64,000 nucleotides of DNA from Rhodococcus maanshanensis NBRC 100610 (GCF_001894865.1 NZ_BCXA01000016.1:1-64000); one strand, 5' to 3'; numbered from the stretch's first letter, positions 5,601 through 57,645 are shown. Translations and numbers: made by a program. The notes: generated by a model not told the origin, from the letters alone.

Positions 5601-5690
5601 AACGTACTCCGAAGCTATCGAGCCAAAGCCACGCCGATCCCCCCGGCACCATTCGGCCTGACCATCGCATAGTGCGAACCAGAGTGACAA

Positions 5691-5729
5691 GATACGTGAC
5701 CAGGCCGCTCCGTGTTCGGGTCACGTATC
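5691..5729. promoter_or_regulatory. Palindromic operator candidate upstream of NRPS3
   Basis: Perfect 10-bp arms GATACGTGAC (5691-5700) and GTCACGTATC (5720-5729) are separated by 19 bases, about 90 bp upstream of the NRPS3 start. A further GTGAC half-site lies at 5684-5688. The octamer GTCACGTA recurs upstream of NRPS1 (49637-49644). A dimeric regulator site is plausible; the protein is unknown. Confidence 0.45.
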
Positions 5730-24900: not shown

Positions 24901-27900
24901 TACGCGGACGAACCGGGCGACGAAGCCCTCGACCGTCGCGCGGTCGAACAGGTCGGTCGCGTAGTTGAAGCCGCCGGCGATGCCCGCAGGCGAACCGTCG
25001 ACATCGAAGTTCTCGGAGAGGTTCACCTGCAGGTCGGTGCGGGCGACCTTCGGGTCGAAGTCCACACCTGCGACACGAAGCCCCGGCAGTTCCAGCGAGG
25101 TCTGTCCGGTGTTCTGCAGGGCGAGCGCCACCTGGGACAGCGGGGTCCTGGACTGGGAACGCTCGGGGCTGAGCACCTCGACGAGCCGCTCGAACGGAAC
25201 ATCGGCATTCGCAAAGGCGGACAGGTCCACCTCGCGGGTGGCCGCGAGGAATTCGGCGAACGAACGGGCCGGCGGCACCTCTGTCCGGAGCACCAAGGTG
25301 TTGACGAACATGCCGACCAGATCGTCGAGCGCGGCCTCGCCCCGCCCCGCGACCGGTGTGCCGATCGCGATGTCCTCGGTCCCGCTGAGGCGAGCAAGCA
25401 GCACGGCCAGCGCGGAGTGCAGCACCATGAACATGGTCGAGGTGTGGTTGCGCGCGAGCTCGATCAGTCCATGGTGAAGTTCGGCCTCGATCCTGAACTC
25501 GACCGTGTCGCCGGCGTGAGAGGCAACCATCGGCCGCACTCGATCCGCCGGAAGATCCAGCTGGACCGGCAGGTTGTCGAGGGTCTCCGACCAGAACGAG
25601 AGCTGCTGTGTGACCAGCGAATCGGGATCGTCTTCGGACCCGAGGACCTCCCGCTGCCACAGCGCGAAGTCCGCGTACTGCACCTCGAGTGGCGCCCATC
25701 CGGGTCGCTCACCTGCACACCGGGCGGCATAGGCAGTCATAACGTCTCTGGTCAGGGGACCGATCGAGAATCCGTCGCCCGCAATGTGATGGACAACCAG
25801 GACCAGCACGTGCTCGTCGGTGCCTGTCACGGCGAACAACGCAGCTCGCACCGGTATCGCGGCGGTGACGTCGAAGCCCTGCGCCGCGAGAGCGACCACG
25901 TGCTCCAACACCTCGTTCTCGCCGACCTCGACCGCCGCCAACTCCAGCGTTGCGGACGCAGCGGGCAGGATCACCTGATGTCCCATGCCGTCGAGTGCCG
26001 GGTATACGGTGCGCAGGACCTCGTGCCGCGCCACCAGATCCCCGATCGCGGCCCGCAGCGCCTCGACGTCCAACGCACCGGTCAACCGGACCGCCACCGG
26101 AATGTTGCCGGCCGCAGAGGTCGTGTCGAACTGGTTGATGAACCACATGCGCTGCTGTGCCAGCGACAGTGGAATCACATCCGGACGCGGCTTCGCCGTC
26201 AGCTCGACCCTGCCGCCCGAGCCGGCATGCGCCTGCAGACGGGTCGAGAGTGCCGCCACGCTCGACGCCTCGAACAGCTCGCGAACCGGCACCCTGGCGT
26301 CGAGCGCCGCCCCGATCCGCGCCATCATCTGCGCGGCGATCAGCGAGTTGCCGCCGAGTTCGAAGAAGTCGTCGTCGAGACCGACCCGGGGGACGCCGAG
26401 CACCTCGGCGAACACGCCCGCCACGACCTGCTCGATCGGCGTCGACGGGGCACGGAACGCCTTCGCCTCGAACACCGGCGCAGGCAATGCCTTCCGGTCC
26501 AGCTTGCCGTTCGCCGTCAGCGGGATCTCGTCGAGCACCACGAACGCGGACGGCACCATGTACTCCGGCAACAACCCCGCGGCACCGTCCCGCACCGCGG
26601 CCACATCAAGCTCCGGCCCGCCCGGCACCACGTAGGCGACGAGCACCGGGTTACCCGGGGCGTCCTCGCGCACGATCACCGCGACCTGACCCACCGACTC
26701 CTGCGCCAGCACAGCCGCCTCGATCTCACCGAGCTCGATGCGGAAGCCGCGAACCTTCACCTGATCGTCCGCGCGGCCGAGGTACTCGAGCTCACCATCG
26801 CGGTTCCACCGCGCAAGGTCACCCGAGCGATACAGGGCAGACCCCTCCGGGTCGAACGGGTTCGCCACGAACCGCGCAGCCGTCAACGCCGGCTGACCGA
26901 GGTAGCCACGCGCCAACTGCACACCGGCGACGTACATCTCACCCGGAACCCCGACCGGGACCGGCCGCATCCGAGTATCGAGGACGAACACCCGCAGCCC
27001 GGCGATCGCCTGGCCGACGAGGCTGCCCGAAGCGGTCGCTGCGGCGAGCTCGTCGAGACGACGATGCGAGACGTGCACCGTGGTCTCGGTGATGCCGTAC
27101 ATGTTCACCAGCACCGGAGCGTCGCCGCGACGGGAATACCAGTCGCTCAGGCGACGCAGCTCGAGCGCCTCACCACCGAAGACCACATACCGCAGAGACA
27201 GCTCCGCAGGCGCCTGCCGATCCGCCTCCGCCAACTGGTAGAACGCCGACGGCGTCTGGTTGAGCACCGTCACCCGCTCCCGCGCCAGCAGCTCCAGGAA
27301 CTGCTCCGGCGAACGCGACGTGAAGTAGTCGACGACCACCAACGTGCCGCCGTACAGCAACGGACCCCACAGCTCCCACACCGAGAAGTCGAACGCATAC
27401 GAGTGGAACATCGTCCACACGTCCGACTCGTCGAAACCGAACTCCGACTCCGTGTTCGACATCAACCGCGTCACCGTCCGGTGCGGAACCTGCACACCCT
27501 TCGGACGACCCGTCGACCCCGACGTGTAGATCACGTACGCCACGTTGCCCGCCCGCAGCGGAGCTGGCCGGTCGGAATCGACGACCACCGCCGACGACAC
27601 CGAAGACAGATCCACCGCATCCAGCTCGACGACCGCAAGCCCGTCAGGCAAACCGATCTCGCGACCGGTCCAGGTCACCACACACACCGGCGCCGCATCG
27701 GCCAGCATGTACTCGATGCGATCCGCCGGATACGTCGGATCGACAGGCAGGTACCCACCGCCCGCCTTGAGCACCGCCAGCAGCGCAACCACCAGGTCAG
27801 CGGATCGCGGCAGCGCCACCGCCACCAGCGACTCCGGCCCCACCCCCGCCTCGATCAGTACCCGGGCCAGGCGATTCGCCTGCTCGTCCAGCTCCCGGTA

Positions 27901-30900
27901 AGTCACCGACGTGTCCTCGAACCGCACCGCGACCCGCTCCGGGAAGCTCGCCGCCGCGGCTCCGAAGCGCTCGACCAGCGTGGCGTCTTCACCGGCGTCC
28001 GGTCCCGCCGCGGGCCAGACCTCGAGGAGGTTACGACGCTCGTCGGACGACACCAGGTCGATGTCGCCGACCGCGGCGAACGGATCGGCGGTCACCGCGT
28101 CGAGCAGGCGCACGAATCGCTGGGCGAACGTGCGCATCGTCGCATCGTCGAACAGATCCGTGGCGTATGTGAGCTCGGCCGTCATACCCGTCGGCGCACC
28201 CTCGCCGGAGAACGTCTCCGACATCGTCACCTGCAGGTCGAACTTCGCGACACCGGCGTCGACCTCCACGCCGCTCACGGTCAGCCCCGGCAGTTCGAGC
28301 GTCGGCACGTCCATGTTCTGGAAGGTCAGCACCACTTGGAACAGCGGATGCCGCGCTTGCGAACGTGCCGGGTTCAGCACCTCCACCAGCCGCTCGAACG
28401 GCACGTCCGCATGGGCAAACGCACCGAGGTCGCTCGCGCGGACACGGGCCAACAGATCGGAGAAGGACTCCGAGTCCTCCACCTGGGTCCGCAACACCAA
28501 CGTGTTGACGAACATGCCGATCACATCGTCGATCGCCGCCTCGCCACGGCCGGCGACCGGCGTGCCGATCGCGATGTCCGAGGTGCCGGACAGCCGCGCG
28601 AGCAGCACCGACAGGGCTGCGTGCACGACCATGAACAGCGAGGTGTTGTTCTCCCGGGCAATGGAATTGAGATGCGCCGTCGACTCGGGCGCAATCTCGA
28701 ACCGATGGGTCCGACCATGGTTGGAGATTGCCGCCGGCCGAGGGCGATCGCTGGGGAGGTCCAGCTGGTCGGGCAGCCCTGCCAATTCGTCACGCCAGTA
28801 GTCGAGCTGCTTGGCGATCACCGACTCCGGATCGTCCTCCGAGCCGAGAACCTCGCGCTGCCAGAGACTGAAGTCCGCATACTGCACCGGCAACGGATCC
28901 CACGACGGCGCGTCGCCGACCGAGCGGGATGCGTACGCCGTCACCACGTCCCGGATCAGCGGCCCCATCGAGAAGCCGTCGGCCGCGATGTGATGGACGA
29001 CGAGCACCAGCACGAACTCGTGCTCTTCCGCGGAATCCGCATCGACCTGGTAGAGGTTCGCCCGCATCGGGACGGCCGAGGTGACGTCGAATCCGACCGA
29101 GATGTCCGCGGTGACCCGCTGCAGCAACTCGTCCGCGGACACCGTCACCGGGGTCAGGTCCGGCGTCGCCTGCTCGGCCGTCAGGATCACCTGGGCCGGC
29201 CCCTGCGCCGAGTCCGGGTACACGGTCCGCAGCACCTCGTGCCGCGCCACGACGTCGGCGACCGCCGCCTGCATCGCGGAGAGATCGAGCCGACCCCGCA
29301 GGCGAACCGGTATCGGAATGTTGTTGGCCGCCGACTCGGTGTCGAACCGGTTGAGGAACCACATCCGAGACTGGGCCAGCGACAACGGGATTCGGTCAGG
29401 ACGCTCACGCGCGGCGAGTGGAATGGCGCTAACCGGCGCATTCACCGCGCCCTCGATGACGAGCGCGAGCTCGGCCACGGTAGGCGCGTCGAAGAACTCA
29501 CGCACATCGATCCGGACACCGAAGTCACGGTTGAACCGGGCGATCGCTCTGGTCGCGATGAGCGAGTTGCCGCCGAGCTCGAAGAAGTCGTCGTCCACGC
29601 CGATCTTCTCGAGTCCGAGCAGATCGGAGAACAACTCCGTCAGCTTCTCCTCTGTCGGCGTGCTCGGCGCCCGGTACTCGCGGGCGAGGGAGGAGAAGTC
29701 CGGAGTCGGCAATGCCTTGCGGTCGAGCTTGCCGCTCGCGTTCAGCGGGAATGCCTCGAGCGCCACGAACAGTGACGGCACCATGTATTCCGGCAACTTC
29801 CGCTTCAGATCCGCACGAAGCTCGCGGTGGTCCGGGACCGTGCCTGCGGTCGGCACCAGGTACGCGACGAGGTGCTCGCCGACTGTCGGATCGTTGTGCA
29901 CGACGACGACAGCCTGTACCACCTCACTGCGGCTGAGCAGCGCGGACTCGATCTCGCCGAGCTCTATACGCAGGCCCCGCAGCTTGACCTGGAAGTCGAT
30001 CCGTCCGAGGTAGTCGACGGAAGCATCCGCGCGCCACCGAACGAGATCGCCGGTGCGGTACATCCGAGCGCCCGGCCCACCGTAGGGGTTCGCCACGAAT
30101 CGGTCTGCCGTCAGGTCCGGACGCTCGACGTACCCCCGCGCCAGCTGAACGCCCGCCAGGTACAACTCACCCGGAACCCCGACAGGCACCGGACGCAGTC
30201 CGTCGTCGAGGATCAGCAGTTCGCATTCTGCGAGCGCAGATCCGATGGGCATGGTCACGTCGTCGAGCTCACTGACCCGGTGGTGCGAAACGTCGACCGC
30301 GGCCTCTGTCGGACCGTACATATTGTGCAGCGGCACGTCGCTGACCGTGCGGAACCGGGCCGCGGTCTCGGGGGGCAACGCCTCACCGGACGAGAAAACG
30401 ATTCGCAGCGAGCGCACCAGCGGTGCCGTCGGCTCGAGGAGGTACAGCGAGAGCATCGACGGGACGAACTGCGCCAGAGTGACACCGTGTTCGAGCATTG
30501 TTCGCGCGAGGTAGGCGGGGTCGCGGTGACCGTCGTGGGTGGCGATCACCAGCCGAGCACCCGCGCTGAGCGGCCAGAACAGCTCCCACAGCGAGACGTC
30601 GAACGTGAACGGCGTCTTGTGCAGGACGACGTCGTCTGCGTCCAGTCCGAAGGTCCGCTGTCGCCACACCAGGTTGCTCACGATTGAGCGATGCGACACC
30701 GCGACGCCCTTGGGCTTGCCTGTCGACCCGGACGTGAAGATCACGTAGGCGATGTTGTCCGCCGACAACGCCGTCAGCCGGTCGGCATCGGTGACCGGTT
30801 CGCCCGAATGCTCCGACAGGTCGAGCTCGTCGATCTCGAGCACCGTCACGCCCGAGGGCAGCGGAACCCCGTCGCGTGCGGTGGTGAGGACGGCCGCGGG

Positions 30901-31536
30901 GTCCGCCACGTCCAGCACATGCCCGAGGCGATCCGCCGGGTGATCCGGATCGAGGGGAACATAGGCGCCGCCGGCCTTGAGGATCGCGTACATGCCGACC
31001 AGCAAGTCGAGGGACCGGCGAATCGCGAGGCCGACATGATCCTCGGGCTTGACCCCCATGGCCAGGAGGTGACGGGCAAGCCGGTTGGCTCGGTCGTCGA
31101 ACTCCGCGTACGTCAGCCGGGCACCCTCGAACTCGAGCGCGATCGCGTCGGGCGTCCGTGTGACCTGCTCCTCGAACAGGCTCAACAGGGTCTGCGCCAC
31201 TGCCCCGCCACCCGAGTCCGATTCGGCGTCCGGATGCGCCTCGGCCGCGTCGGCGAGCAACGCCTCCAGAACCCGGGCCAGGCCACCCGCCTCGTCCGTA
31301 TCGTCCAGGTCAGGGAGCAACCCGGCGATGACGACCGGGATCAACGCATCCGAACCCAGTGCGCCGCCCATGGCGGCGTCGAGGGTCTCGAGCTCGGTGT
31401 GCAACGTCTGATACGTGATGTCGGTGCCCTGGTGGGTAATGGCCCGCCGCTCGGGTTCGGTCCTCACCACCGCGGCGATCACTCGCTGGAGATCCTCGAC
31501 AAAAAGAACCCGCCCCCGCGGATTTCCACCCGACAT
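6205..31536 (-). CDS. NRPS2: eight-module terminating non-ribosomal peptide synthetase with thioesterase
   Basis: About 8443 residues. Order: adenylation-like stub (1-108), A1-T1, seven C-A-T modules, then a type I thioesterase. Carrier serines lie at about 654, 1730, 2786, 3860, 4932, 6004, 7058 and 8128, a regular 1054-1076-residue repeat. All eight are LGGNS. All seven C domains keep HHxxxDG. Pocket codes by eye: A1 DVWQFSMVDK (Ser-like), A2 DFWNVGMVHK (Thr), A3 DINMGGGIVK (unassigned), A4 DVWDFILVSK (unassigned), A5 DVWHFSLVDK (Ser), A6 DVWEHGTITK (Glu at the fourth position suggests a basic side chain such as Orn), A7 DAWQFGLMQK (Gln-like), A8 DLWHLILVSK (unassigned, identical to NRPS1 A5). 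No epimerization or methylation domain was seen. The start is ATG at 31536 with GGGAGG nine bases upstream; the longer open frame to 31614 lacks such a site. It is expected to accept the NRPS1 chain and release the product. Confidence 0.95.
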   Translation of the reverse strand: MSGGNPRGRVLFVEDLQRVIAAVVRTEPERRAITHQGTDITYQTLHTELETLDAAMGGALGSDALIPVVIAGLLPDLDDTDEAGGLARVLEALLADAAEAHPDAESDSGGGAVAQTLLSLFEEQVTRTPDAIALEFEGARLTYAEFDDRANRLARHLLAMGVKPEDHVGLAIRRSLDLLVGMYAILKAGGAYVPLDPDHPADRLGHVLDVADPAAVLTTARDGVPLPSGVTVLEIDELDLSEHSGEPVTDADRLTALSADNIAYVIFTSGSTGKPKGVAVSHRSIVSNLVWRQRTFGLDADDVVLHKTPFTFDVSLWELFWPLSAGARLVIATHDGHRDPAYLARTMLEHGVTLAQFVPSMLSLYLLEPTAPLVRSLRIVFSSGEALPPETAARFRTVSDVPLHNMYGPTEAAVDVSHHRVSELDDVTMPIGSALAECELLILDDGLRPVPVGVPGELYLAGVQLARGYVERPDLTADRFVANPYGGPGARMYRTGDLVRWRADASVDYLGRIDFQVKLRGLRIELGEIESALLSRSEVVQAVVVVHNDPTVGEHLVAYLVPTAGTVPDHRELRADLKRKLPEYMVPSLFVALEAFPLNASGKLDRKALPTPDFSSLAREYRAPSTPTEEKLTELFSDLLGLEKIGVDDDFFELGGNSLIATRAIARFNRDFGVRIDVREFFDAPTVAELALVIEGAVNAPVSAIPLAARERPDRIPLSLAQSRMWFLNRFDTESAANNIPIPVRLRGRLDLSAMQAAVADVVARHEVLRTVYPDSAQGPAQVILTAEQATPDLTPVTVSADELLQRVTADISVGFDVTSAVPMRANLYQVDADSAEEHEFVLVLVVHHIAADGFSMGPLIRDVVTAYASRSVGDAPSWDPLPVQYADFSLWQREVLGSEDDPESVIAKQLDYWRDELAGLPDQLDLPSDRPRPAAISNHGRTHRFEIAPESTAHLNSIARENNTSLFMVVHAALSVLLARLSGTSDIAIGTPVAGRGEAAIDDVIGMFVNTLVLRTQVEDSESFSDLLARVRASDLGAFAHADVPFERLVEVLNPARSQARHPLFQVVLTFQNMDVPTLELPGLTVSGVEVDAGVAKFDLQVTMSETFSGEGAPTGMTAELTYATDLFDDATMRTFAQRFVRLLDAVTADPFAAVGDIDLVSSDERRNLLEVWPAAGPDAGEDATLVERFGAAAASFPERVAVRFEDTSVTYRELDEQANRLARVLIEAGVGPESLVAVALPRSADLVVALLAVLKAGGGYLPVDPTYPADRIEYMLADAAPVCVVTWTGREIGLPDGLAVVELDAVDLSSVSSAVVVDSDRPAPLRAGNVAYVIYTSGSTGRPKGVQVPHRTVTRLMSNTESEFGFDESDVWTMFHSYAFDFSVWELWGPLLYGGTLVVVDYFTSRSPEQFLELLARERVTVLNQTPSAFYQLAEADRQAPAELSLRYVVFGGEALELRRLSDWYSRRGDAPVLVNMYGITETTVHVSHRRLDELAAATASGSLVGQAIAGLRVFVLDTRMRPVPVGVPGEMYVAGVQLARGYLGQPALTAARFVANPFDPEGSALYRSGDLARWNRDGELEYLGRADDQVKVRGFRIELGEIEAAVLAQESVGQVAVIVREDAPGNPVLVAYVVPGGPELDVAAVRDGAAGLLPEYMVPSAFVVLDEIPLTANGKLDRKALPAPVFEAKAFRAPSTPIEQVVAGVFAEVLGVPRVGLDDDFFELGGNSLIAAQMMARIGAALDARVPVRELFEASSVAALSTRLQAHAGSGGRVELTAKPRPDVIPLSLAQQRMWFINQFDTTSAAGNIPVAVRLTGALDVEALRAAIGDLVARHEVLRTVYPALDGMGHQVILPAASATLELAAVEVGENEVLEHVVALAAQGFDVTAAIPVRAALFAVTGTDEHVLVLVVHHIAGDGFSIGPLTRDVMTAYAARCAGERPGWAPLEVQYADFALWQREVLGSEDDPDSLVTQQLSFWSETLDNLPVQLDLPADRVRPMVASHAGDTVEFRIEAELHHGLIELARNHTSTMFMVLHSALAVLLARLSGTEDIAIGTPVAGRGEAALDDLVGMFVNTLVLRTEVPPARSFAEFLAATREVDLSAFANADVPFERLVEVLSPERSQSRTPLSQVALALQNTGQTSLELPGLRVAGVDFDPKVARTDLQVNLSENFDVDGSPAGIAGGFNYATDLFDRATVEGFVARFVRVLESIVVGVDTPVGDIEILSSPEHADLAARIGAGTTEPKTLPELLAAAAASNPSRAALSSDGRSITYRELDEESSRLARVLIARGAGPESVVAMALPRSVESVLSIWAVAKTGAAYVPIDPSYPADRIEHMVSDSEVVVGITAGQFVEALPSSVQWLVLDDADLAAQLSETSTAVVTDVDRTVPVRLEQPAWVIYTSGSTGKPKGVVVTHVGLADFVEFQRRATVTTADSRVLHFASPSFDISVNEMLLAATSGACLVIAPTTIYGGTELAELLRGERVTHAMMTPTTLASLDPSGLPDLRMIGVGGEACPPELVARWGGDREFLNGYGPTETTIVVSFTEPMVPGQPVTIGRPVCGVRALVLDTRLNLVPDGVVGELYIGGSSLARGYRGRPDLTADRFVADPFGRPGGRMYRTGDLVRWTDTGELDYVGRSDFQVKVRGFRVELGEIDSLLSAQPGIEFAVTLGHSGAGGVSSLVSYVLAGDGVEVDVDALKSVLEQSLAQHMVPSVIMVLDEIPRTPVGKLDRKALPAPVFAAKAYRAPTNAVEEAVAATFAEVLDIERVGLDDDFFGLGGNSLIATQLTARLGVTLNATVPVRTLFEASTVEALAAAIEQYVGRGGRAALVAQERPERIPLSLAQQRMWFLNRFDPESALYNMPIALRLSGRLDLAALRLAVVDVFERHESLRTLYPEIDGDPCQMIVSAEQAAPDLIPVAVAEDEILDTVVSLVSRGFDVTSEVPLRANLFTLESADRLDATDEYVLVMVVHHISSDGWSMAPLTRDLMVAYAARSAGQAPGWTPLPIQYADYALWQRSVLGSEDDPDSVIAEQFGFWRSVLADLPDQLDLPADRARPLVASNRGAVHTFAIDGHLHAALNELARQQNTTLFMVVHSALAILLARLSGTEDIAVGTPVAGRGEAALDDVVGMFVNTLVLRSQVRPDASFSDLLAQTRSGDVAAMGHADAPFERLVEVLNPVRSQARHPLFQVALFFQNLSQTAVELPELSVSAVDLDTAVAKFDLQWTFAETAPEAGETAGMVVELTYATDLFDESSAIVFGDRFVRVLEAVVAEPERLVGDIALLATDELDRVLVGWNDSTHVVDAGELLLDAFDAQVSVSADSTAVVFEDSSLTYAEFSERVNRLARLLIAEGVGPESLVALAVRRSLDLVVGMYAVIEAGGAYVPVDPDHPVDRIGHILDTAAPVCVLTTARDGFEVPGDRSVIRIDTVDLAAYSAEPISDTDRVARLEPAHPAYVIFTSGSTGKPKGVAVSHGAIVNQVTWMQAEYGIDESDVYLQKTATTFDVSLWGYFLPLRVGAQLVVATPDGHRDSAYVAETIRAHAVTMTDFVPSMLTVFAEYAPAESLTSLQHVFVIGEALPAETVRGFAAVCAARLHNLYGPTEAAVSITYADVTETAAGGSVSIGRPEWNSQVFVLDSRLRPVPVGVPGELYLAGVQLARGYYGRVDLTSDRFVANPFSGATGDAVGDRMYRTGDLVTWSASGELDYIGRTDFQVKFRGQRIELGEIESALLAHPSVSQSVAVVVGTSTGDQLVGYVVPSAGTAVDVGELRSSIGQALPSYMVPSALVVLEGFPLNSSGKLDRKALPAPVFEAKAFRAPSSPVEQIVADVFGEVLGLELVGLDDDFFELGGNSLTAMRLTSRVNDVLGSRLGVREVFEASSVAGLAARAVVVAGGVASPALVPVARPDRIPLSLAQNRMWFLNRFDTESVAYNIPMAIRLVGELDTAALQLAVRDVIGRHESLRTMFPEIDGVPVQLILPVEDIDLDLNPIDVAPEDLFTTIASVLGTGFDVTAAVPVRGKLLRIGTPGVEPAGGPGNTEFALVLVIHHISADGVSTGPLARDVMTAYVARSAGEAPGWAPLPVQYADFTLWQREVLGSEDDPESVAAKQIEYWVETLAGLPDLLELPTDHPRPAVASNRGSLLRFEIEPELAAGLGAVARANGASTFMAIQAVFSVLLSRLSGTSDIAIGTPVAGRSAAELDDLVGMFVNTLVLRTEVDGEASFAELLGRIRETDLAAFGRADIPFERLVEVINPVRSQAYSPLFQVSLTFDGHQGAALELPGLTVSTFDYEADTAQFDLALAITENVEIDGVPGGIVGGLRYATDLFERSTAESIAARFVRVLRAVVAEPEALIGDVDVLGADERECVLSEWNATGALIEPTTLVELFGEEVARTPDAIALTFEGAELSYSDFDARANRLARHLISMGVGPESLVALAMRRSLDLLVGIYAVVKAGGAYVPVDPDQPADRIGHILETAAPVCVLSTSRDDVTIVGDDSVILVDSVDLSGFAATPVTDAERLSALHTDNTAYVIFTSGSTGRPKGVAVSHRAIVNRLIWMQAEYGLGVDDVVLQKTPVTFDVSVWELFWPLQVGARLVIAAPDGHRDPAYLTRVIVEQSVTTMHFVPSMLALFVTESTVATASTLVRVFASGEALPAQTAASLREVLPQARLHNLYGPTEAAVDVTFHEVTDADEVAVPIGAPVWNTQVFVLDSRLQPVPVGVAGELYLAGAQLARGYVGRVDLTADRFVANPFAAGGRMYRTGDLVAWQPNGEIDYLGRTDFQVKLRGLRIELGEIETSLLTVPEVSQSVVTLHRSPLTGEALVAYLVPAAGAEIDQRAVKSAVAASLPSYMVPSAFVVLEEFPLNASGKLDRKALPAPVFEAKVFRAPSNPVEEIVAATFAELLGVDLVGADDDFFELGGNSLIATQVTARLGAEFDTTVPVRTLFDSSTVAALAAAVSQYAGQGGRKALAAQERPDRIPLSLAQQRMWFLNRFDTESAAYNIPVALRLSGELNVDALQLAVGDVLERHEPLRTLYPENDGEAFQLVVPVSQALPDLSPEDVTEDEVVGRVVELLSTSFDVTTEVPIRAGLFRTTPVGTDPSERPASTDYVLVLVVHHISADGWSIAPLTRDVMIAYTARAEGRGPGWSPLTVGYADFALWQRDVLGTEEDPESLVSRQLGYWRKALAGLPDLLELPTDRPRPAVASNQGARKTFSIDAGIHDGLRRIAKEHNATLFMVVHAALSVLMSRLSGSEDIAIGAPIAGRGEAALDDLVGMFVNTLVLRANVAPDAGFADLLAQVRDTDLGAFGNSDVPFERLVDVLSPVRSQSHSPLFQVSLTFQNLARTELDLPGLHVSAVDHDATLTWFDLDFTFVDRYDEAGLPVGIDVGLTYATDLFDASTVDRFARSLQRILAAIVASVDAQVGDIGLLSPDELTTVLEEWNASEVTVPEATLVDLVDAQVARRPDDIALVFEGDSLTYAEFDTRVNRLARWLIVQGVGPDDLVGLAAYRSLDMLIAMYAIVKAGGAYVPIDPDHPADRIAYVVESAQPSLILMTPTVALAPLPGVRMVATADLALNGYDVAPITDAERVAPLHTGNTAYVLYTSGSTGRPKGVAVSHHAIVNQLHWLEGEYQVTSADRIMQRAPFTFDVSVWECFLPMHVGGRLIITRPGGHLELDYLAGLMREHGISIAEFVPSVLAAMIADGAGDALASLRHLHSGGEALSAELVDTIRSNFSGGLHNTYGPTEAAITTTGYEIDGPVRGAVPIGGPAWNTQAYVLDSRLNVVPVGVAGELYLAGDQLARGYHGRVDLTADRFVANPFGASGDRMYRTGDLVRWDVRGDLVYLGRTDFQVKLRGLRIELGEIESAMMQAEGVSQALVVLVEDPRAGEHLVGYVTAAAGAALDAGVIRAAVGTNLPAYMVPSQVLVLDAFPVNSSGKLDRKALPAPVFEAKEFRVPVTEAEQAVAAVFGEVLGLDRIGLDDDFFGLGGNSLVAMQVVARIGAKLDTRIAVRELFDAPTVEALAARLQAQVGVGRRIELAARPRPERVPLSLAQTRMWFLNRFDPESSVYNIPAAMRLFGDLDVQALRAAIGDVVARHEVLRTVYRELDGTGYQVILPDHAVDLPLESVRADEVFDRVSGVLTAGFDVTAGVPLRAALLRVDESETDHVLVMVVHHIACDGFSTTPLTRDVMLAYAARSAGVAPVWESLPVQYADYAMWQRELLGSERDPESLLATQLDYWRSTLRGAPDVLELPTTHPRPAVASNLGAFQEFAIEADLHAALDAVARRSGATLFMVMHAAVAVLLARLSGTSDIVIGTPVAGRGEAELDDLVGMFVNTLVLRTEVDGHASFREVLARARETDLGAFGHADVPFEQVVEALNPVRSQAYSPLFQAVVSFQDLDTPQVEFDGLRIEGIDSDVVLAKFDLDFGFGDRYDGNGVPAGVSGALTYATSLFDAAGAQRLVDGLVRVLRAVADDAELPVGDIDLLGEGERELVLREWNASGAPAASATLDSLFADQVARTPDAVALVGDSETLTYRQFDDRVNAVARHLIDLGVGVESRVVLAMRRSTEQVVAMYAVIRAGGAYVPVDPDQPAERFGYVIDTANPEYVLVDTDSGEVSVGRTAVVIADLDLGDVRPITASDRIGVPSPENTAYVLFTSGSTGRPKGVAVTHGAASNQLVSMQAEYALDEQDSVLQKTPATFDASVWEFFWPLQTGARMVLASADGHRDPQYLATVLVEQAVTTVQFVPSMLPMVLAALPESGTPALKRVFAGGESLPAGVAAEFGRVTGAVVHNLYGPTEAAMQVTRREAVESDVAIVPIGGPVEGTELFVLDARLHPVPVGVPGELYLAGVQLARGYESRPDLTAERFVANPFAGGERMYRSGDLARWNRSGELEFLGRTDFQVKLHGLRIELGEVEAALAAHPSVRQSAAAVVATATGQHLVGYVTAAPDVDVDEIVKAVEGRVPSYMVPSRVMVLDALPVNSSGKVDRKALPAPVFEAREFRAPVTETEQIVATVFGDVLGLERVGLDDNFFELGGNSLIAMQVVARLGAALDTVVPVRELFEESTVVGLATRVAAIAGQGRRPELVAGERPESVPLSMAQSRMWFLNRFDAESAAYNIPAAIRLSGDLDVDALQAAVGDVVARHEVLRTVYPETVDGPVQVIVPAGDAVPDLSAVTVAESEVMGVVGAFLQGGFDVTEQVPVRALLLRVDRPELGTGAVVEHVLAVVVHHISADGLSMGPLTRDVMVAYAARSAGEVPGWAPLPVQYADYALWQREVLGSEDDPLSLISRQLGYWKSALAGLPDQLDLPTDRPRPVVQSYHGGRVELEVGSDLHRRLSDLAREHNSTLFMVVHAAFAVLLARMSGTSDIAVGTPFAGRGEAALDDMIGMFVNTLVFRTEVDGSESFAELFARVRETDLGAFGNSDVPFERLVEVLNPTRSTARHPLCQVGFSFQNIGGSNAELPGLSIAALDFESEVSQFDLHLIVADLYDTDGNPAGLSGGITYATALFDAATAEAFSVRLVRILEAMVDDPTVVVGDVELFDGAEADRVLGDWNATDEDVADATLVDLFDAQVARTPGSAALVFEGETVSYGEFDARVNRLARRLIADGVGPESLVGLAMRRSVDLLVGMYAIVKAGGAYVPVDPDHPAERIALVLDSAAPTTVLVRSADSVDLPGEVRVLSVDTEDLSGLDSSPVVDTDRIAPLRPSNPAYVIFTSGSTGRPKGVAISHAAVVNQLVWKQAEYRLGGQDAVLLKTAATFDLSVWEFWWALQTGARLVIARADGHQDPGYLLDLMARESVTTLHVVPSMLSMLLADTAAVFPESVTRVLAIGEALPAATAARLRRVSAARLDNLYGPTEAAVSVTSYRASEADLVTVPIGAPEWNTQVFVLDSRLHPVPVGVPGELYLAGAQLARGYHGRSDLTADRFVANPFADGERMYRTGDVVRWLPDGNLDYLARADFQVKVRGFRIELGEIESALRAYPGVAETVVVAREGAYAGTQLVGYVVGDADGATLDGQTVRDGLSGAVPSYMVPSVVMVLDALPLNVNGKVDRKALPAPVFEAREFRAPTTPVEEIVASTIAVLLGVERVGLDDNFFELGGNSLMATQVAARLGAAFDIRVPVLWLFSDATPEKLAARIDVALRGEVDPGGEAAFGVLLPLREGGSKPPLFCVHPVIGLSWAFGGLSAHIDRDRAVYGLQSPALGEAGELPGSIEDWADRYVREIRSVQPEGPYHLLGWSLGGVIAHAMAVQLQAEGQEVALLSMMDSVAGRGDLPSEPSGAMTTGELLGGLLPAAESAGLVDLDAALNADVVVDLVAGLPEPFNGLGADRVTRAIGSAERSLSMMVDYQPERYKGDLIFFTAALDDVDGTRNVSTWTEAVDGRIHNHPIEATHWGMASSASLGRIAEVLNDLWEAGR
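27065..27880 (-). repeat. Near-identical Thr adenylation segment, copy in NRPS2 module 2
   Basis: DNA encoding the core of a Thr-type A domain (code DFWNVGMVHK). It is almost identical over hundreds of bases to segments at 37425-38240 and 40632-41450 in NRPS1. For example, the block encoding FHSYAFDFSVWELWGPLLYG is nearly unchanged. Its N-lobe part (27725-27880) matches the 41290-41450 copy best. Confidence 0.85.
31210..31536 (-). other. Adenylation-domain stub at the N-terminus of NRPS2
   Basis: Residues 1-108 resemble only an A-domain beginning (ITHQGTDITYQTLHTEL, then AGLLPDL). They precede a complete A domain that starts near SLFEEQVTRTPDAIAL. The stub parallels the C-terminal stub of NRPS1 and the N-terminal stub of NRPS3. 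It probably marks an ancestral split within a C-A junction; a docking function is inferred. Confidence 0.6.
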
Positions 31537-31564
31537 CTTGCTGTTCCTCCCACTACCACACTGC

Positions 31565-31590
31565 GCCCCGGACCCGGACCGTTCCGGGGC
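31565..31590 (-). promoter_or_regulatory. Hairpin in the NRPS1-NRPS2 intergenic region
   Basis: 8-bp perfect inverted repeat (GCCCCGGA and TCCGGGGC) with a 10-nt loop, 15 bp upstream of the NRPS2 Shine-Dalgarno site (31546-31550). No T run follows. It may influence NRPS2 translation or mRNA stability. Confidence 0.4.
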
Positions 31591-31612
31591 AAATTCACAA
31601 CACAAATCCGTC

Positions 31613-31658
31613 ACCGTCCGGCGTCGTCCGCCAGAACTATAGGGTCACGCCGGACGGT
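31613..31658 (-). promoter_or_regulatory. Long hairpin spanning the NRPS1 stop codon
   Basis: Perfect 12-bp inverted repeat (ACCGTCCGGCGT at 31613-31624, ACGCCGGACGGT at 31647-31658) with a 22-nt loop. One arm touches the NRPS1 stop codon (31645-31647). With the hairpin at 31565-31590 it gives two tandem stems in the 108-nt gap, a possible attenuator or mRNA-processing element between the two giant genes. Confidence 0.45.
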
Positions 31659-31944
31659 CGGACTGTGCTTTCTCCACAATTGATCGAGAGGCGCTGATCA
31701 GCGATTCCAATGCCCTCGCGTGCCCCTCCGCGCCGAGCGCCGGGAGGATACCCGGCAGCAATCCCGACAGTGAGACGGTCACCAACGCCTCCGGTTTGAG
31801 GGCCGATCCCATCGACTTGGAGACCGCCACCAGTTTCGTGCCGAGCTGGCCGTAGGTGACATCCCGACCATCGTGGGACAGCGCGATCGCATCCGGCTCC
31901 GCGGCCGCGGCTGCGGCGACGAGATCCGGAAGATCACGCACGGT
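31645..31944 (-). other. Adenylation-domain stub at the C-terminus of NRPS1
   Basis: After the sixth C domain the last ~100 residues begin like an A domain (DLPDLVAAAAAAEPD, DVTYGQL). They continue through VSLSGLLPGILP, then stop with no nucleotide-binding motif. The layout and the GLLP segment match the N-terminal stubs of NRPS2 and NRPS3. Confidence 0.6.
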
Positions 31945-34900
31945 CAACGCCGGCTTCGGCGCGAACCGCGAGCGCTCCTGATCGGTGAGGATGTCGATGG
32001 ACCGCAGCACCACGGCCGGGTCCTCGGCGATGGCCTCCAGGATCCGGGCGAACCGACCCGCGAAGAGCTTGATCGTCTCCGGATCGAACAGGTCCGCCGC
32101 GTACGTGAACCTCATCTGGATCTCCGCGAGCCTGCCGAGATCGTCGAACTGCTCCATACCTGTCAACTGCAGATCGAACTTGGCCTGATCGAATCCGTCG
32201 TCGAACGCGGAGACCTCGAGACCCGGCAACTGCAGCGAACGGGTCGTCATGTTCTGGAAGGCGAACATGACCTGGAACAACGGGGTGTATGCGGCCGAGC
32301 GCTGGCACCCCACCACATCGACCAGCCGCTCGAACGGCACGTCGGCGTGGCCGAAGGCGGCCAAGTCCTTGCTCCGTGCCTGCCCGAGCAGCTCCTCGAA
32401 CGTGCTCCCCGAACTGACCTGGGTGCGCAGCACGACCGTGTTGACGAACATACCGATCAGTTCGTCGAGCACCTGCTCACCCCGGCCCGCGACAGGGGTG
32501 CCGATCGCGATGTCGGTCGATCCACTCATCCGCGACATCAGCACCGCGAAGGCGCTGTGGATCACCATGAACATCGTCGCGTTGTTGTCCCGGGCGATCC
32601 GGCTCAGACGATCGGTGACGTCCGACCCGACCACGAAATCGAACGAGCCGCCCCTCATCGACTGGCGAGCGGGACGCGGCCGATCGGCCGGCAGTTCGAG
32701 TTGCTCCGGGACCCCCGCGAGTTCGTCCGTCCAGTACGCCAGCTGACGCGCGATCAGGCTCTCCGGGTCGTCCTCGGATCCGAGCAGCTCACGCTGCCAG
32801 AGGCTGTAGTCGGCATACTGCACCGGCAGCGGCGACCACGACGGAACCTGCCCGTCGACCCGCGAGGAGTAGGCGATCATCACGTCCCGGGTGAGCGGAC
32901 CCATCGAGAAGCCGTCCGCGCTGATGTGGTGAACCACAACCACGAAGACGTACTCGGTCGGGGCCAGCTCGAACAGGGCGGCCCGGACCGGCACGGACTC
33001 GGTGACGTCAAAGCCGGTTCCGACCATTTCCGCGAGCGCCTCGCCCATGGCCTGCTCGGTCACCTGAACCGGCGCGAGGCTCGGCGCCATCTCCTCGAGC
33101 GGGACGATCGCCTGGACGGGACCGTCGGCTGTGTCCGGATACATCGTCCGCAACACCTCGTGCCGCTCGAGCACGTCGAGCACCGCGGCCTCAAGCGCGG
33201 GCACGTCCAACAGACCCGACAACCTGATTGCGCCCGGAATGTTGTACGCGGCTGAATCCGGGGCCATCTGGTTGAGCACCCACATCCGTTGCTGCGCCAG
33301 CGACAGCGGTATCCGCGCCGGCCGTTCCGCCGCGACCAACGCCAGTCGACCGCCGGAGCCTGCGTGCGCCTCGACACGCACCGCGAGCTCACCGATCGTC
33401 GGCGTATCGAACAGCCACAGCACCGGCACCTGGGTGTCCAGCGCCGCCCCCAGCCGGGCAGCGACCTGAGTCGCCACCAGCGAGTTGCCCCCGAGCGCGA
33501 AGAAGTCGTCGTCCAGACCGACCTGCTCGGCCCCCAGCACGCCCGCGATGATGTCCGCCACCAACTGCTCGACGACGGTGGCCGGAGCTCGGAACTCCGC
33601 CGCCCCGAACTCCGGATCCGGAAGGGCCTTGCGGTCGATCTTGCCGTTGATGTTCAGCGGTAGCGCCTCGAGAACCACGAAGGCCGAGGGCACCATGTAG
33701 CTCGGCAACACCGCCGCTGCGGCTGCCTTCAGCCGCGCCACGTCGATATCGGTGTCCACCGCAGGCACCAGGTAGGCGACCAGCCGCTCGCCGGTGCGCT
33801 CATCCGAACGAGCCGTCACGACCACCGCCGCGACGGACTCCTCGCGTGCCAGCGCGGCCTCGATCTCGCCGAGCTCGATCCGGAAGCCGCGGACCTTGAC
33901 CTGGAAGTCGCTGCGCTCGAGGTACTCGAGCTCGCCGTCCGCGCGCCATGCCACCAGGTCACCGGTGCGGTACATGCGCTCGCCCGCCGGACCGAACGGA
34001 TCTGCAACGAACCGGTCCGCGGTCAGATCGACACGCCCGTGGTAGCCGCGAGCGAGCTGGGCACCTGCGAGGTATAGCTCGCCGCCCACCCCGGCTGGCA
34101 CCGGGTTGAGCCGGGCGTCGAGCACGTAGACGCGGGTGTTCCATTCCGGGGTACCGATCGGCACCGATGCGGTGTCGAGATCGGTGACCTCGTGCGAGGT
34201 GACCGAGACCGCTGCCTCCGTCGGCCCGTACAGGTTGAACAGTCGTGCGGCGTTGGCCGCGCGGAACGACTGGGCGGTCGCCGCGGGCAGCGCCTCACCG
34301 ATCGCGAGCACGCGCCGCAACGAATCGGACAGCGCGCCACCCGCCGCTGCAGTCGAGAGCATCGACACCATCGACGGCACCGCGTGGAGGGTGGTGACGG
34401 CCTGGGTCCGGATCAGGTCGAGGAGGTAGTCGGGGTCCTGGTGCCCGCCGGGCTTCGCGATGACCAGGCGGCCACCCGAGACGACAGGAGTCCAGAACTC
34501 CCACACCGACAGGTCGAAGGTGGCGGCGGTCTTGAGCAGGGCCGCGTCCGATCCGTCGAGCCCGAATTCCGCCCGCATCCAGAGCAGCTGGTTGACGATC
34601 GCGGAATGGCTCACGGCCACGCCCTTTGGCCGGCCCGTCGAACCGGACGTGAAGATCACGTACGCCGGGTGCTCGGGACGCAACGGACGAATCCGGTCCG
34701 CATCCGTGACGGCGGTGTCCGGGTAGCGGGAGAGGTCCTCCTGGTCCAGGAGGAGGACAGACCTGTCCCCTGCTCCGTCGAAATCGTCTCGCGCGGTGGA
34801 CAGCACGCACACCGGTGCCGCGGTCTCGAGGATGTGGCCGATCCGCTCGGCGGGGTGGTCGGGGTCGATCGGGACGTAGGCGCCGCCCGCGGCGACGACC

Positions 34901-37900
34901 GCGTACATGCCGACGACCAGGTCGGTCGAGCGCCGCATGGCCAGCGCCACCAACGACTCGGACCCGACACCCAGCTCGATCAGCCTGCGCGCCAACCGGT
35001 TCACTCGCGAGCCGAAGTCGCGGTAGCACAGTTCGGAGCCCTCGAACCACAGCGCCGGTGCGCTCGGGGTGGCCGCGACCTGCGCGTCGAACAGATCGGC
35101 CAGGGTCAGGTCGGCGACCTGCTCGCCGGTGTCGTTCCACCGCTCCAGCAGACGCTCCCGCTCGGCGGCGTCGAGGAGCTCGAGGTCGCCGACCGTCACG
35201 TCGGGGTCGGCCACCGCAGCCTCGACGATCCGCACGAATCGCTCGGCGAACCGCTCCACCGATGCCTGGTCGAACAGGTCCGTCGCGTAGTGGAACATCG
35301 CGTCCACGCCGACCGGTGCACCGTCGGAGTCGAAGCGCTCGGTGAGGAACAACTGCAGGTCGAACTGCGTGATCTGGTTGTCGATCTCGAGCGCCGACAC
35401 GCTGAGGCCGGGCAGTTCGAGACTCTTCTTGGCCACGTTCTGGAACGAGAAGCCGACCTGGAACAGCGGATGCCGCGCCGTGGACCGGGTGGGGTTGAGG
35501 ACCTCGACGAGGCGCTCGAACGGCACGTCGGCGTGGCCGAATGCCGCTAGATCCGACTCGCGTACCGCCGACACCAGCTCGGCGAAGGTCTTCGATCCGT
35601 CGACGTGGGTGCGGAAGACCAGCGTGTTGACGAACATGCCGATCAGGTCGTCCATCGCGGCCTCACCGCGACCTGCGATCGGGGTGCCGACCGAGATGTC
35701 GTCGGTCCCGGACAGTCGGGCCAACAGCACCGCGAGCGCGGTATGGGTGGCCATGAACAGCGTCGCACCCTGACTGCGGGCCACACTCGCCAAGCCACGA
35801 TGCAGGCGAGCGTCGAGCTCGAAGGCCACCCGCCCACCCTGGTTCGAACGCACCGCAGGGCGAGGACGGTCGCTCGGCAGGTCCAGCTGGTCGGGAAGCC
35901 CTGCTAGGGTTCGCCGCCAGAAGTCGAGCTGCTGGCCGGCGACCGAGGTCGGGTCCTCCTCGGAACCGAGCACGTCACGCTGCCACAGCGCGTAGTCCGC
36001 GTACTGCACGGACAGTTCCGACCACTCCGGGTCACCCCCGGCCAGGCGGGCGGAATAGGCGGTCATCACGTCGCGGACAAAGGGCGTGATCGACGAACCG
36101 TCGGCGGCGATGTGGTGGACCACGAACGCGAGCACGAACTCACCGGTCGCCAGTCGTTCCGCAGACTCCACTCCCGCGCCGTCGATCTCGAACAGGCACA
36201 CCCGCAGCGGCACCTCGACCGTGACGTCGAACTGCGTGGTCGCGAACTCGAACAGTCGCTGTGGCAGCTCATCGGCACCCACAAGAACCGGATCCAGCTC
36301 GCGCCTCACCGCGCCAGGGGCCTCGATGAGCTGGAACGGACCGTCGCCGGTCTCGGGGTAGCGCGTGCGCAGCGACTCGTGCCGCGCGATGACATCGGCC
36401 AGCGCGGACTCCAGCGCGTGGCGATCGAGTTCACCGGTGAGCCTGATCGCCATCGGGATGTTGTACGCGCTCGAACTGCTGTCGAAGCGGTTGAGGAACC
36501 ACATCCGTTGCTGGGCCAGGGACAGCGGAATCCGCTCCGGCCGGTCCTGCGCGACCAGCGCGGGACGGGCACCGGTGCCCGCGAGAGCGCCGACTGCCGA
36601 GGCGACGGCGGCCACGGTCGACGACTCGAACAGCGTCCGCACCGGGACGCGGGTGTCGAGCGCCACACCGATCCGGGCGACCACCTGCGCGGCGATCAGC
36701 GAGTTGCCGCCGAGCTCGAAGAAGTCGTCGTCGAGACCGACCCGCTCGAGACCGAGCACCTCGGCGAACACGCCTGCCACGATCTCCTCGGCGGGCGTCG
36801 ACGGGGCGCGGTACTCTCGCACCTCGAAAACAGGCGCAGGCAATGCCTTTCGGTCCAGCTTGCCGTTCGCCGTCAGCGGGATCTCGTCGAGCACCACGAA
36901 CGCGGACGGCACCATGTACTCCGGCAGCGCCGTCGCGGCACCGTCCCGCACCGCGGAGACGTCCAGGCCGGAGCCGCTCGGCACGACGTAGGCGACGAGC
37001 GTGGGGTTGCCGGGAGTGTCCTCGCGGACGATCACCGCGGCCTGACCCACCGACTCCTGCGCCAGCACGGCCGCCTCGATCTCACCGAGCTCGATGCGGA
37101 AGCCGCGAACCTTCACCTGGTCGTCGGCACGACCGAGGTACTCGAGCTCGCCGGACGCGTTCCAGCGGGCGAGGTCACCCGAGCGGTAGAGCGCAGATCC
37201 GTCGGCATCGAACGGGTTCGCCACGAAGCGCGCCGAACTCAGCGCCGGCTGCCCGAGGTAGCCGCGCGCCAATTGCACACCCGCGACGTACATCTCGCCA
37301 GGGACGCCGACCGGCGCCGGCTGCAGCCGGCCGTCGAGCACGTAGACCCGGAGACCGTCGATCGCCTGGCCGACGATGCTCGCCGAAGCCGCGGCGGCCG
37401 TCTGCGCGTCGATCTCCCGGTACGACACGTGCACCGTCGTCTCGGTGATGCCGTACATGTTCACCAACGTCGGAGCGGTGTCCGGATGCCGGTCGTACCA
37501 GTCGCTCAGGCGACGCAGCTCGAGGGCCTCACCACCGAAGACCACATACCGCAGTGACAGCTCCGCAGGCGCCTGCCGATCCGCCTCCGCCAACTGGTAG
37601 AACGCCGACGGCGTCTGGTTGAGCACCGTCACCCGCTCCCGCGCCAGCAGCTCCAGGAACTGCTCCGGCGAACGCGAGGTGTAGTAGTCGACGACCACCA
37701 GCGTGCCGCCGTACAGCAGCGGACCCCACAGCTCCCACACCGAGAAGTCGAACGCATACGAGTGGAACATCGTCCACACGTCCGACTCGTCGAAACCGAA
37801 CCGCCGCTCGGTGTTCCGCATCAACCGCGTAACGGTGCGGTGCGGAACCTGCACGCCCTTCGGACGACCCGTCGACCCCGACGTGTAGATCACGTACGCG

Positions 37901-40900
37901 ACATTGCCCGGCCGCAGCGGGGCCAACCGCTCGGAATCGGCGACCGGCGCCGCCGAGCCCCCGGACAGGTCCAGCGTGTCCAGCTCGATCACCGGAAGCC
38001 CGGTGGGCAGGGCGATCTCGCGGCCGGTCCAGGTCACCACGCACACCGGAGCGGCGTCGGAGAGCATGTACTCGATGCGATCCGCCGGATACGTCGGATC
38101 GACGGGCAGGTACCCACCGCCGGCCTTGAGCACCGCCAGCAGCGCGACCACCAGGTCCAGCGAGCGCGGCAACGCCACGGCGGCAAGGGTCTCAGGACCG
38201 ACGCCCGCCGCGATCAGCCTGCGTGCCAACCGGTTCGTGCGTTCGTCGAGCTCGCGATAGGTGAGACCGTCCGCACCGAAGCGCACCGCGACCCGATCGG
38301 GGAAGCTCACCGCCGCCACTGAGAATCGTTCGATCAGCGTGGCGTCGACACCGGCATCAGGGCCTGCCGCGGGCCACACCTCGAGTAGGTTGCGACGCTC
38401 ATCGGACGACACCAGATCGATGTCCCCGACTGCGCTGCTCGGGTCAGCGGAGACCGCGCCGAGCACTTGCACGAGTCGCTTCGCGAATGCGTGCATCGTC
38501 GCATCGTCGAAGAGGTCGGTGGCATAGGTGAGCTCGGCAGACATCCCCGTCGGTGCACCGTCGTCGGCGAAGGTCTCCGACATCGTCACCTGGAGATCGA
38601 ACTTCGCGACGCGGGCATCGATCTCGACGCCGCTCACGGTCAGCCCGGGCAGTTCGAGCGTCGGCACGTCCATGTTCTGGAAAGTCAGTGCCACCTGGAA
38701 CAGCGGGTGCCGCGCCTGCGAACGGGCCGGACTGAGGACCTCCACGAGCCGCTCGAACGGCACGTCCGTGTTGGCGAAGGCCGCGACATCGACCGACCGG
38801 GTCTGTCCGAGGATCTCCTCGAAGCTCGAACCGGAATCGACCTCGGTGCGCAGGACCAACGTGCCGACGAACATGCCGACCAGATCGTCGAGCGCGGCTT
38901 CACCACGCCCCGCGACCGGCGCACCGATCGCGATATCGGAGGTGCCCGACAACCGCGCCAGCAACACCGACAGGGCCGCATGCACGACCATGAACAGGGT
39001 GGCCCCCTGCGTGCGGGCCAGACCGCTCAGGTCGCGATGCAGGTCGGCATCGATCGTGAAACGGTGCGCTGCACCGCGATACGACGCAACGGCCGGGCGC
39101 GTGCGGTCGCTCGGCAGGTCCAGCTGGTCGGGCAATCCGGCCAGCGCGTCCGCCCAGTACCGCAACTGCGTGGACACCAACGACTGCGGGTCCTCCTCGG
39201 ACCCGAGCACCTCGCGCTGCCACAGCGCGTAATCCACGTACTGCACCGGCAACGGTGACCACGCCGGCGCCACACCCGCGGCGCGCGCGGCGTACGCGGT
39301 CATCACGTCCCGCACCAGCGGACTCATCGACCAGCCGTCAGCACTGATGTGGTGCACGACGAACACGAGCACGAACTCGGTAACCGAGGTCTGCAGAAGC
39401 GTCACTCGCAGCGGGACCTGATCGGTCACGTCGAACCCGGTCGCCGCTTCCCGGACGAGCGCCTCGAACATCTCACTCTCGTTCGCCGCGACGGGCGTCA
39501 GGTCGGGCATCGCCTGCGCGACAGGGACGATCACCTGGACCGGGCCGTCGGCAGTGTCCGGGTACACCGTGCACAGGACCTCGTGGCGGTCGAGCAGGTC
39601 CGCGACCGCCGCACGCAACGCCTCGAGATCGACCGAACCGGTCAGGCGCACCGCGATCGGTATGTTGTTCATCGCCGACTCGGTGTCGAACTGGTTCAGG
39701 AACCACATCCGCGACTGCGCAGGGGAGAGCGGGATCCGCTCGGGGCGCGGTCCGGCGACGAGCGCCACGCGCCCGCCCTCACCTTCGAGCGCACCGACAG
39801 CGGCCGCGAGCGCGACGACGGTCGACGACTCGAACAGGATCCGCACCGGGACGCGGGTGTCGAGCGCCGCACCGATCCGTGCCGCCACCTGCGCGGCGAT
39901 CAGCGAGTTGCCGCCGAGCTCGAAGAAGTCGTCGTCGAGACCGACCCGTTCGAGACCGAGCACCTCGGCGAACACGCCCGCCACGACACCCTCGATCGCG
40001 GACTCCGGTGCACGGAACTCGCGGACCTCGACGGCGGGAGCGGGCAACGCCCGCCGATCCAGCTTGCCATTGGCCGTCAGCGGGATCTCGTCGACGACCA
40101 CGAACGCGGACGGCACCATGTACTCCGGCAGCACCGCAGCCGCGCCCTCGCGCACACCGGGAACGTCCACCGTGACACCGGCAGCGAGCACCAGGTACGC
40201 CACCAGACGCGCGCTGCCAGGAACATCCTCGCGGACGATCACGGCGACCTGCGCGACCGAATCCTGAGCCAGGAGCGCCGACTCGATCTCGCCGAGCTCG
40301 ATGCGGAAACCGCGAACCTTGACCTGATCGTCCGCGCGGCCTAGGTACTCGAGGTCCCCGTTGCGGTTCCAACGGGCGAGGTCGCCCGAGCGGTACAGCC
40401 TCGAACCGTCCACTCCGAACGGATCGGCCACGAACCGCGACGCCGAGAGCGCCGGCTGACCGAGGTAGCCACGCGACAACTGCACACCCGCGACGTACAT
40501 CTCGCCGGGAACGCCGACCGGGACAGGGCTGAGTCGCTCGTCGAGAACGTAGACGCGCAACCCCGCGATCGCCTGACCGACCACCGATGCCGACGCCGAC
40601 GCCGCCATCACCGCGTCGATCTCGCGATACGACACGTGCACCGTCGTCTCGGTGATGCCGTACATGTTCACCAACGTCGGAGCGGTGTCCGGATGCCGGT
40701 CGTACCAGTCGCTCAGGCGACGCAGCTCGAGCGCCTCACCACCGAAGACCACATACCGCAGAGACAGCTCCGCCCCGGACTGCCGATCCGCCTCCGCCAA
40801 CTGGTAGAACGCCGACGGCGTCTGGTTGAGCACCGTCACCCGCTCCCGCGCCAGCAGCTCCAGGAACTGCTCCGGCGAACGCGACGTGAAGTAGTCGACG

Positions 40901-57562: not shown

Positions 57563-57564
57563 GC

Positions 57565-57606: not shown

Positions 57607-57645
57607 AGAGCCCTCCCGACCAGCCGCTGTGCTTACGATGAGCGG

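Follow-up and report, generated by a model that had tools for sequence, protein, structure and literature searches.

How does a nonribosomal peptide synthetase (NRPS) that ends in a condensation (C) domain find a partner that begins with an adenylation (A) domain? The question is raised by a 64,000-nucleotide stretch of Rhodococcus maanshanensis NBRC 100610 (NZ_BCXA01000016.1, positions 1 to 64000; the whole stretch is hereafter the window, and is contig C16 of the 5.67-Mb genome), in which two large genes on the minus strand, NRPS1 and NRPS2, carry related A-start-like sequences at their facing ends, here called the C-stub (end of NRPS1) and the N-stub (start of NRPS2). Docking elements decide which NRPS subunits interact, and the genome is rich in such enzymes (97 PF00668 matches in a Pfam profile search of the whole genome). 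We consider it probable that the two stubs dock with each other, as a heterotypic pair of docking domains joining NRPS subunits that are divided at the C/A boundary.

Related stubs at the NRPS1/NRPS2 junction

A sequence-only reading of the window had described NRPS1 as ending, behind its last C domain, with the beginning of an A domain (DVTYGQL, SLSGLLPGILP) that then stops, and NRPS2 as opening with a related stub (DITYQTL, AGLLPDL) ahead of a complete first A domain (A1). Both descriptions were borne out: the C-stub runs for ∼107 residues to a TGA, and A1 covers positions 1 to 383 of the 384 in PF00501. The two stubs are 39% identical (E = 2.1 × 10−14 and 1.9 × 10−14) and are reciprocal best non-self matches genome-wide; beyond paralogous stubs, a search with the NRPS1 stub next recovered A-domain starts, from E = 1.2 × 10−6 on. 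The NRPS1 C-stub is 99% identical to its counterpart in Rhodococcus oryzae. A single TGA and ∼108 nt part NRPS1 from NRPS2, with both open frames in register. NRPS2 probably starts at ATG 31536 rather than at GTG 31614, because GGAGG lies 9 nt upstream of the former and the methionine there is invariant in a 14-row alignment. In the Rhodococcus loci L139, L142, L152 and L157, both stub genes occupy one frame with a lone TAG between them, and the profile ends are 18 nt apart.

The stubs lack a complete PF00501 core. Those of NRPS1 and NRPS2 had no Pfam match at E ≤ 1; that of NRPS3, a third synthetase gene in the window, matched AMP-binding at 24.2 bits, under the cut-off of 29.9, and the same family matched 2 of 10 C-stubs (best E = 0.0018) and 0 of 11 N-stubs. 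Profiles of either stub nevertheless align, over about columns 7 to 63, with the A-domain N-termini of solved NRPSs (LgrA, SlgN1). AlphaFold predicts a helix, a beta-hairpin and then three helices for the C-stub (predicted local distance difference test [pLDDT] score 82 to 93 per ten-residue block), and a helix, a beta-hairpin and then three or four helices for the N-stub (pLDDT 62 to 89); a second model, of a compact two-stub chain, gave a similar picture. Fold matches of these models were mainly to N-lobes of A domains and acyl-CoA synthetases, all of them weak (Foldseek E > 0.3 throughout). The best VIA match was FadD5 (Z = 5.3, root mean square deviation 3.6), where Z scores of 3 to 4 were also given by some unrelated folds. 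Since its 77 aligned residues span chain positions 23 to 251 of FadD5, with a long piece skipped, we infer that a stub may be an A-domain N-lobe of ∼90 residues that lacks a large internal segment.

Distribution and arrangement of the stubs

Conservation was assessed with stub profiles, as had been proposed along with the sequence-only reading, and the stubs recur across Rhodococcus, Nocardia and relatives. A profile of six stubs matched 4 of 6 genomes of the genus (E ≤ 10−12) and, in the family, 158 of 401 sampled genomes from 15 of 31 genera (E ≤ 10−10; few candidates per genome were scored, and some weak single matches may be ordinary A-domain starts). At the level of the order, matches listed came from 7 of 298 genomes and 4 of 76 genera, every one in the family of the window; the listed rows have no more than 17 scored candidates for any genome, and rarer occurrences are possible. 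A search of named genomes yielded 51 loci, all from Rhodococcus, Prescottella, Antrihabitans or Nocardia.

A first classification covered 111 loci (109 fetched, plus the window and contig C5 of the same genome): 64 with a C-stub followed by an N-stub, two with a C-stub and two N-stubs (own genome), seven with a C-stub and then an N-stub with a long open frame upstream, one with a C-stub and a frame-broken N-stub, six with a C-stub alone, four with an N-stub alone and 27 with an internal stub. The enlarged locus set holds 139 linked C-stub/N-stub pairs, 104 of them unique, from Rhodococcus, Nocardia and relatives, with stub-to-stub gaps of 18 to 195 nt (89 unique pairs measured). The C-stub core stops 1 to 16 residues before the stop codon in the C-stub rows; the odd row, L060 (46 residues), is the frame-broken N-stub. 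Elements at the C-terminus of an upstream and the N-terminus of a downstream protein, as expected of a docking pair, are thus found in 139 linked cases, complementarity here being one of position.

C-stubs and N-stubs form separate groups. Setting aside relatives at ≥85% identity and stubs of the same locus, all 113 C-stubs, all 114 N-stubs and all 25 internal stubs had a nearest neighbour of their own class. In a tree that left out four ordinary A-domain starts, duplicates and rows with >20 gaps, one split holds 109 of 110 alpha C-stubs (support 0.85) and another 108 of 108 alpha N-stubs (support 0.31 only). Mean identity is 37% for cognate C-N pairs versus 35% for all C-N combinations, and by this measure the two classes look like old paralogues. 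The sequence-only reading had explained them as remnants of one C-A junction split within the N-lobe of an A domain. That history is not supported: A1 of NRPS2 is complete, and in unsplit enzymes of ∼11,300 aa just one stub stands where a C domain meets a full A domain. C-stubs and N-stubs belong to separate paralogous groups and are not halves of one domain.

Subtype matching and co-occurrence of unlinked stubs

Two subtypes, alpha and beta, are distinguished by an RGM-type motif. The 104 unique pairs were 101 alpha/alpha, three beta/beta and none mixed (117, three and none, respectively, among 120 pairs including repeats). Evolutionary distances of C-stubs and N-stubs were correlated (r = 0.802), the highest value of six block pairs; given both flanking domains the partial r was 0.385, a value reached by 0 of 500 permutations.

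The two stubs are also retained together when their genes lie apart. In surveys of Nocardia and of a Rhodococcus-like genus (g6), where stubs were called C-type or N-type by score and open reading frame (ORF) length and read directly in fetched loci only, two matches were found in 46 of 71 Nocardia genomes, one in 2 and none in 23. Of the 46 genomes with both, 38 have them linked and 8 have them on separate contigs or >1 Mb from each other; single-contig genomes of the latter kind are G352 (1.36 Mb apart) and G388 (1.8 Mb). The unlinked stubs of G294, G250 and G352 were read directly: in each genome one is C-terminal and the other lies at the N-terminus of another large NRPS, and the N-stub enzyme of G352 begins stub-A-T-C (T, thiolation domain). 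All 30 split-type genomes among the 37 of g6 carry a single C-type match together with one or more of N-type (33 have matches, 3 of them of the fused type); nine have two N-type matches, and the second copies read in G255 and G248 were N-terminal. Both stubs thus occur together in 46 of 48 stub-bearing Nocardia genomes, eight of them unlinked, and in 30 of 30 split-type g6 genomes.

Some Nocardia have no N-stub in the gene that follows the C-stub NRPS, and a whole-genome search located it elsewhere. Right after the C-stub NRPS of Nocardia sp. AG03 lies a protein of 1019 aa (L150, 4312-7368) with AMP-binding matches only and no carrier domain or motif by Pfam and motif scan, so that the terminal C domain is unlikely to use it as its acceptor. 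A Nocardia protein of ∼1020 aa likewise stands directly behind a C-stub NRPS in L207.

A possible branch point in the same genome

Six stubs were found in the R. maanshanensis genome at E ≤ 10−12 with the stub profile, two C-stubs and four N-stubs. Besides those of NRPS1 and NRPS2, there is a C-stub in a 3210-aa frame on contig C5, and there are N-stubs in 8812-aa and 8820-aa frames on C5 and in NRPS3. The NRPS1 C-stub is identical to the NRPS2 N-stub at 34 of 90 positions and to the beta N-stubs at 22 to 25 of 88; the C5 C-stub is identical to the three beta N-stubs at 35 to 37 of 88 and to the NRPS2 N-stub at 24 of 90. The beta subtype is represented in the genome by a single C-stub and three N-stubs. 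The end of C5 and the start of C16 have 347 identical bases in common, for which reason NRPS3 and the C5 beta cluster probably belong to one locus.

The beta N-stub proteins share the terminal thioesterase (TE)-like motif of NRPS2 (only NRPS2 was tested for, and gave, a Pfam thioesterase match; the end of NRPS3 lies on C5). One beta C-stub facing several N-stub proteins with TE-like ends suggests branching, with one upstream enzyme feeding several downstream enzymes. On C5 (171-198 kb, L002 to L003), the 8812-aa and 8820-aa frames are near-identical in the N-stub and differ in the start of the A domain that follows, which would fit a transplanted stub.

Proposed docking and its alternatives

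A terminal C domain requires the aminoacyl-carrier of the next protein, and it is by this logic that binding, delivery and branching are inferred. The C-stub follows the final C domain of the upstream enzyme, and the N-stub precedes the opening A-T of its downstream partner; by binding one another they would present the partner's aminoacyl-carrier to the upstream C domain at its acceptor side. The subtypes would confer specificity, NRPS1 passing to NRPS2 via alpha, and the 3210-aa NRPS of C5 to the 8812-aa, 8820-aa and NRPS3 enzymes via beta; from the match of one beta C-stub to three beta N-stub enzymes it would follow that one upstream enzyme may feed several downstream. The fullest version of this proposal is a new NRPS docking class, in which two homologous elements descended from the adenylation N-lobe reunite modules divided at the C/A boundary, with orthogonal subtypes, action between unlinked loci, and one initiating synthetase feeding two or three alternative TE-terminated synthetases in branched lines. 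As a whole we hold it only tentatively, at slightly worse than even chances.

Several results weigh against docking. The sequence-only reading had taken the stubs for inter-protein recognition elements; they proved to be conserved, paired, specific to the C/A junction and not decaying, as that role would have it, but physical contact found no backing. AlphaFold folded the stubs rather than leaving them disordered, and gave no confident interface: their mutual placement was unconfident both in a 382-aa read-through chain (predicted template modelling score [pTM] 0.32) and in a compact two-stub chain of 215 aa (pTM 0.44), each with 14 rows. Mean-field direct coupling analysis (DCA) between stubs exceeded random shuffles, but the top-20 value of 0.823 is barely higher than the 0.707 to 0.811 of the other five block pairs and is not counted as evidence. 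The matching of beta with beta is based on three pairs. Distances of the N-stub and the C-domain tail correlate nearly as well (r = 0.791) as those of the two stubs, so that shared ancestry explains most of the correlation and is only partly controlled; co-occurrence of the stubs, too, is partly inherited, and Nocardia G404 and G417 show one stub only. Lastly, internal stubs exist in unsplit NRPSs, where docking between chains is unneeded. They account for 27 of the 111 loci, each with one stub inside an NRPS of mostly ∼11,300 aa and, in the cases listed, flanked by a C domain and an A domain; the 11,431-aa frame of G010 (L205) holds a second internal stub ∼2,300 residues past the first.

These fused forms are the strongest point for another explanation, in which the mini-domain serves in cis as a structural spacer or cap where C meets A; after fission each half would have kept a copy over its exposed face, and the copies would not bind each other. 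Such caps too would co-occur wherever split ends exist, and no predicted interface is what they would lead one to expect. Independent caps would not be expected, however, to show subtype matching or a residual distance correlation. Nor are they a general feature of such ends in this genome, where the NRPS frames at C25 39087-61040 (7317 aa) and C41 35916-52781 (5621 aa) end with a C-type domain and no stub, and where the other C-A junctions gave no stub match at E ≤ 10−12. We regard a purely cis role as rather unlikely. A landing site for a third protein (a tailoring enzyme, an MbtH-like protein or a scaffold) bound by both stubs would account for stubs in split and unsplit enzymes alike, but a common partner does not require C-stubs and N-stubs to diverge into distinct groups, and this appears very unlikely. 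That the stubs are functionless, neutral relics of fission or duplication could be argued from the missing catalytic part of the A domain, but is scarcely credible given their conservation across several genera, their joint retention when unlinked and their rates of change. Over 38 non-overlapping locus pairs, dN/dS (nonsynonymous to synonymous substitution rates) was 0.22 for the C-stub, 0.22 for the N-stub, 0.14 for the C-domain tail and 0.20 for the A-domain start; the stubs are under purifying selection about as strict as that on the A-domain start and looser than that on the C-domain tail.

As to how split and fused enzymes are related, they seem to share the same boundary, since the stub of the unsplit enzyme in G079 lies at frame residue 3133, near the end point of the 3210-aa beta C-stub frame of R. 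maanshanensis. Fission accompanied by duplication, or else fusion accompanied by loss, may have led from one form to the other. A recombinant origin of the fused stub, as a chimera of C-stub and N-stub, was not supported: mean identities to beta C-stubs and beta N-stubs were 0.440 and 0.419 for the first half and 0.405 and 0.490 for the second (31 unique internal matches, including four ordinary A-domain starts kept in the means, L185_16639, L138, L130 and L131, which come from later loci outside the 27).

Comparison with known docking systems

If the stubs dock, they do so unlike the classes set out in the NRPS sections of a 2021 review (PMC9113145), which agrees with what the sequence-only reading had claimed. 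Those sections treat COM (communication-mediating) domains at epimerization (E)/C junctions, PAX at junctions of peptidyl carrier protein (PCP) and C, and the beta-hairpin docking domain (betaHD) at PCP/C and PCP/heterocyclization (Cy) junctions, and name no class for the C/A junction (PMC9113145). COM domains resemble the stubs in being a donor and an acceptor matched to each other at the ends of NRPS subunits. They join a donor helix to a hand on the C domain at E/C (PMC9113145), whereas the stub junction is C/A, with an A domain on the acceptor side and globular models for both parts. PAX likewise has structured elements on both subunit ends; it differs as an all-helical, three-helix bundle at PCP/C, for which homology between the two sides is not described in the parts of the review concerned (PMC9113145).

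By description, the betaHD appears to resemble the stubs in the order of structural elements, the stub models showing helix, hairpin, and three or four further helices. However, betaHD binds a disordered short linear motif (SLiM) of <15 residues at PCP/C or PCP/Cy, whereas both stub partners are folded in the models, ∼90 residues long, homologous and at the C/A junction; in place of a short disordered partner at a carrier, there is a C-stub predicted to be folded, behind a C domain. TubC_N (PF18563) matched 0 of 21 stubs at E ≤ 1 and nothing in the whole genome, where control genomes gave no match either, and no betaHD structure was among the fold-search matches listed, which carries no weight as proof. 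One betaHD donor serving several acceptors has been reported (PMC9113145). The NRPS A-domain N-lobe (LgrA, SlgN1; also FadD5) is akin to the stubs in profile alignment and in most fold matches, and differs in that a stub has ∼90 residues and matches with a long piece skipped, at Foldseek E > 0.3 and a VIA Z of at most 5.3.

By junction, folded partners and mutual homology, we regard the stub pair as a possible new class among NRPS docking domains. Stub-like C/A docking was not described in the titles and abstract openings of the literature searched, a coverage that excludes most subscription papers and bioRxiv-only work, and the word “docking” is absent from the main text of PMC5550956, PMC11433410 and PMC12153302. 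If the docking reading is true, C-domain and A-domain partners would be exchangeable at the C/A boundary; it would predict which distant Rhodococcus and Nocardia NRPS genes form one assembly line, or several sharing one start; and product predictions for many orphan clusters would change.

Features of the window

Table 1. NRPS genes, stubs and adjoining domains in the 64,000-nt window (contig C16).
Feature	Position	Strand	Remarks
NRPS3	1..5720	minus	Cut by contig end; joined with the C5 end, ∼3109 residues with terminal TE-like GWSLGG
N-stub, beta subtype, NRPS3	5337..5597	minus	Identical to the C-stub of the C5 3210-aa frame at 35/88, versus 23/88 to the NRPS1 C-stub
NRPS2	6205..31536	minus	Stop at 6205; C-terminal thioesterase domain (Pfam); start at 31536 probable
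First adenylation core of NRPS2, complete	30130..31176	minus	Residues 147-495 of frame 28615-31614
N-stub, alpha subtype, NRPS2	31201..31536	minus	From ATG 31536; profile core 31234-31500
Intergenic stretch NRPS1/NRPS2	31537..31644	minus	In frame with both genes; GGAGG at 31546-31550
C-stub, alpha subtype, NRPS1	31648..31968	minus	Profile core 31675-31941, 8 residues short of the TGA stop
Terminal Condensation domain of NRPS1	31972..33312	minus	PF00668, 331.9 bits; C-stub adjoins directly
NRPS1 ORF	31645..49509	minus	Listed start TTG, 5954 aa by listed start; six PF00668 matches, C-stub after the last one; 3' part also scanned with Pfam

About 1 kb upstream of NRPS1 and on the same strand, genes for a short-chain dehydrogenase, an APH-family phosphotransferase and an acyl-CoA dehydrogenase were identified with Pfam (50547-53577, minus). 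Farther along the window, at 56102-58713 (plus) and 59602-63946 (minus), are genes for a major facilitator superfamily (MFS) transporter, a DUF6777 protein and a branched-chain amino acid ATP-binding cassette (ABC) transporter.

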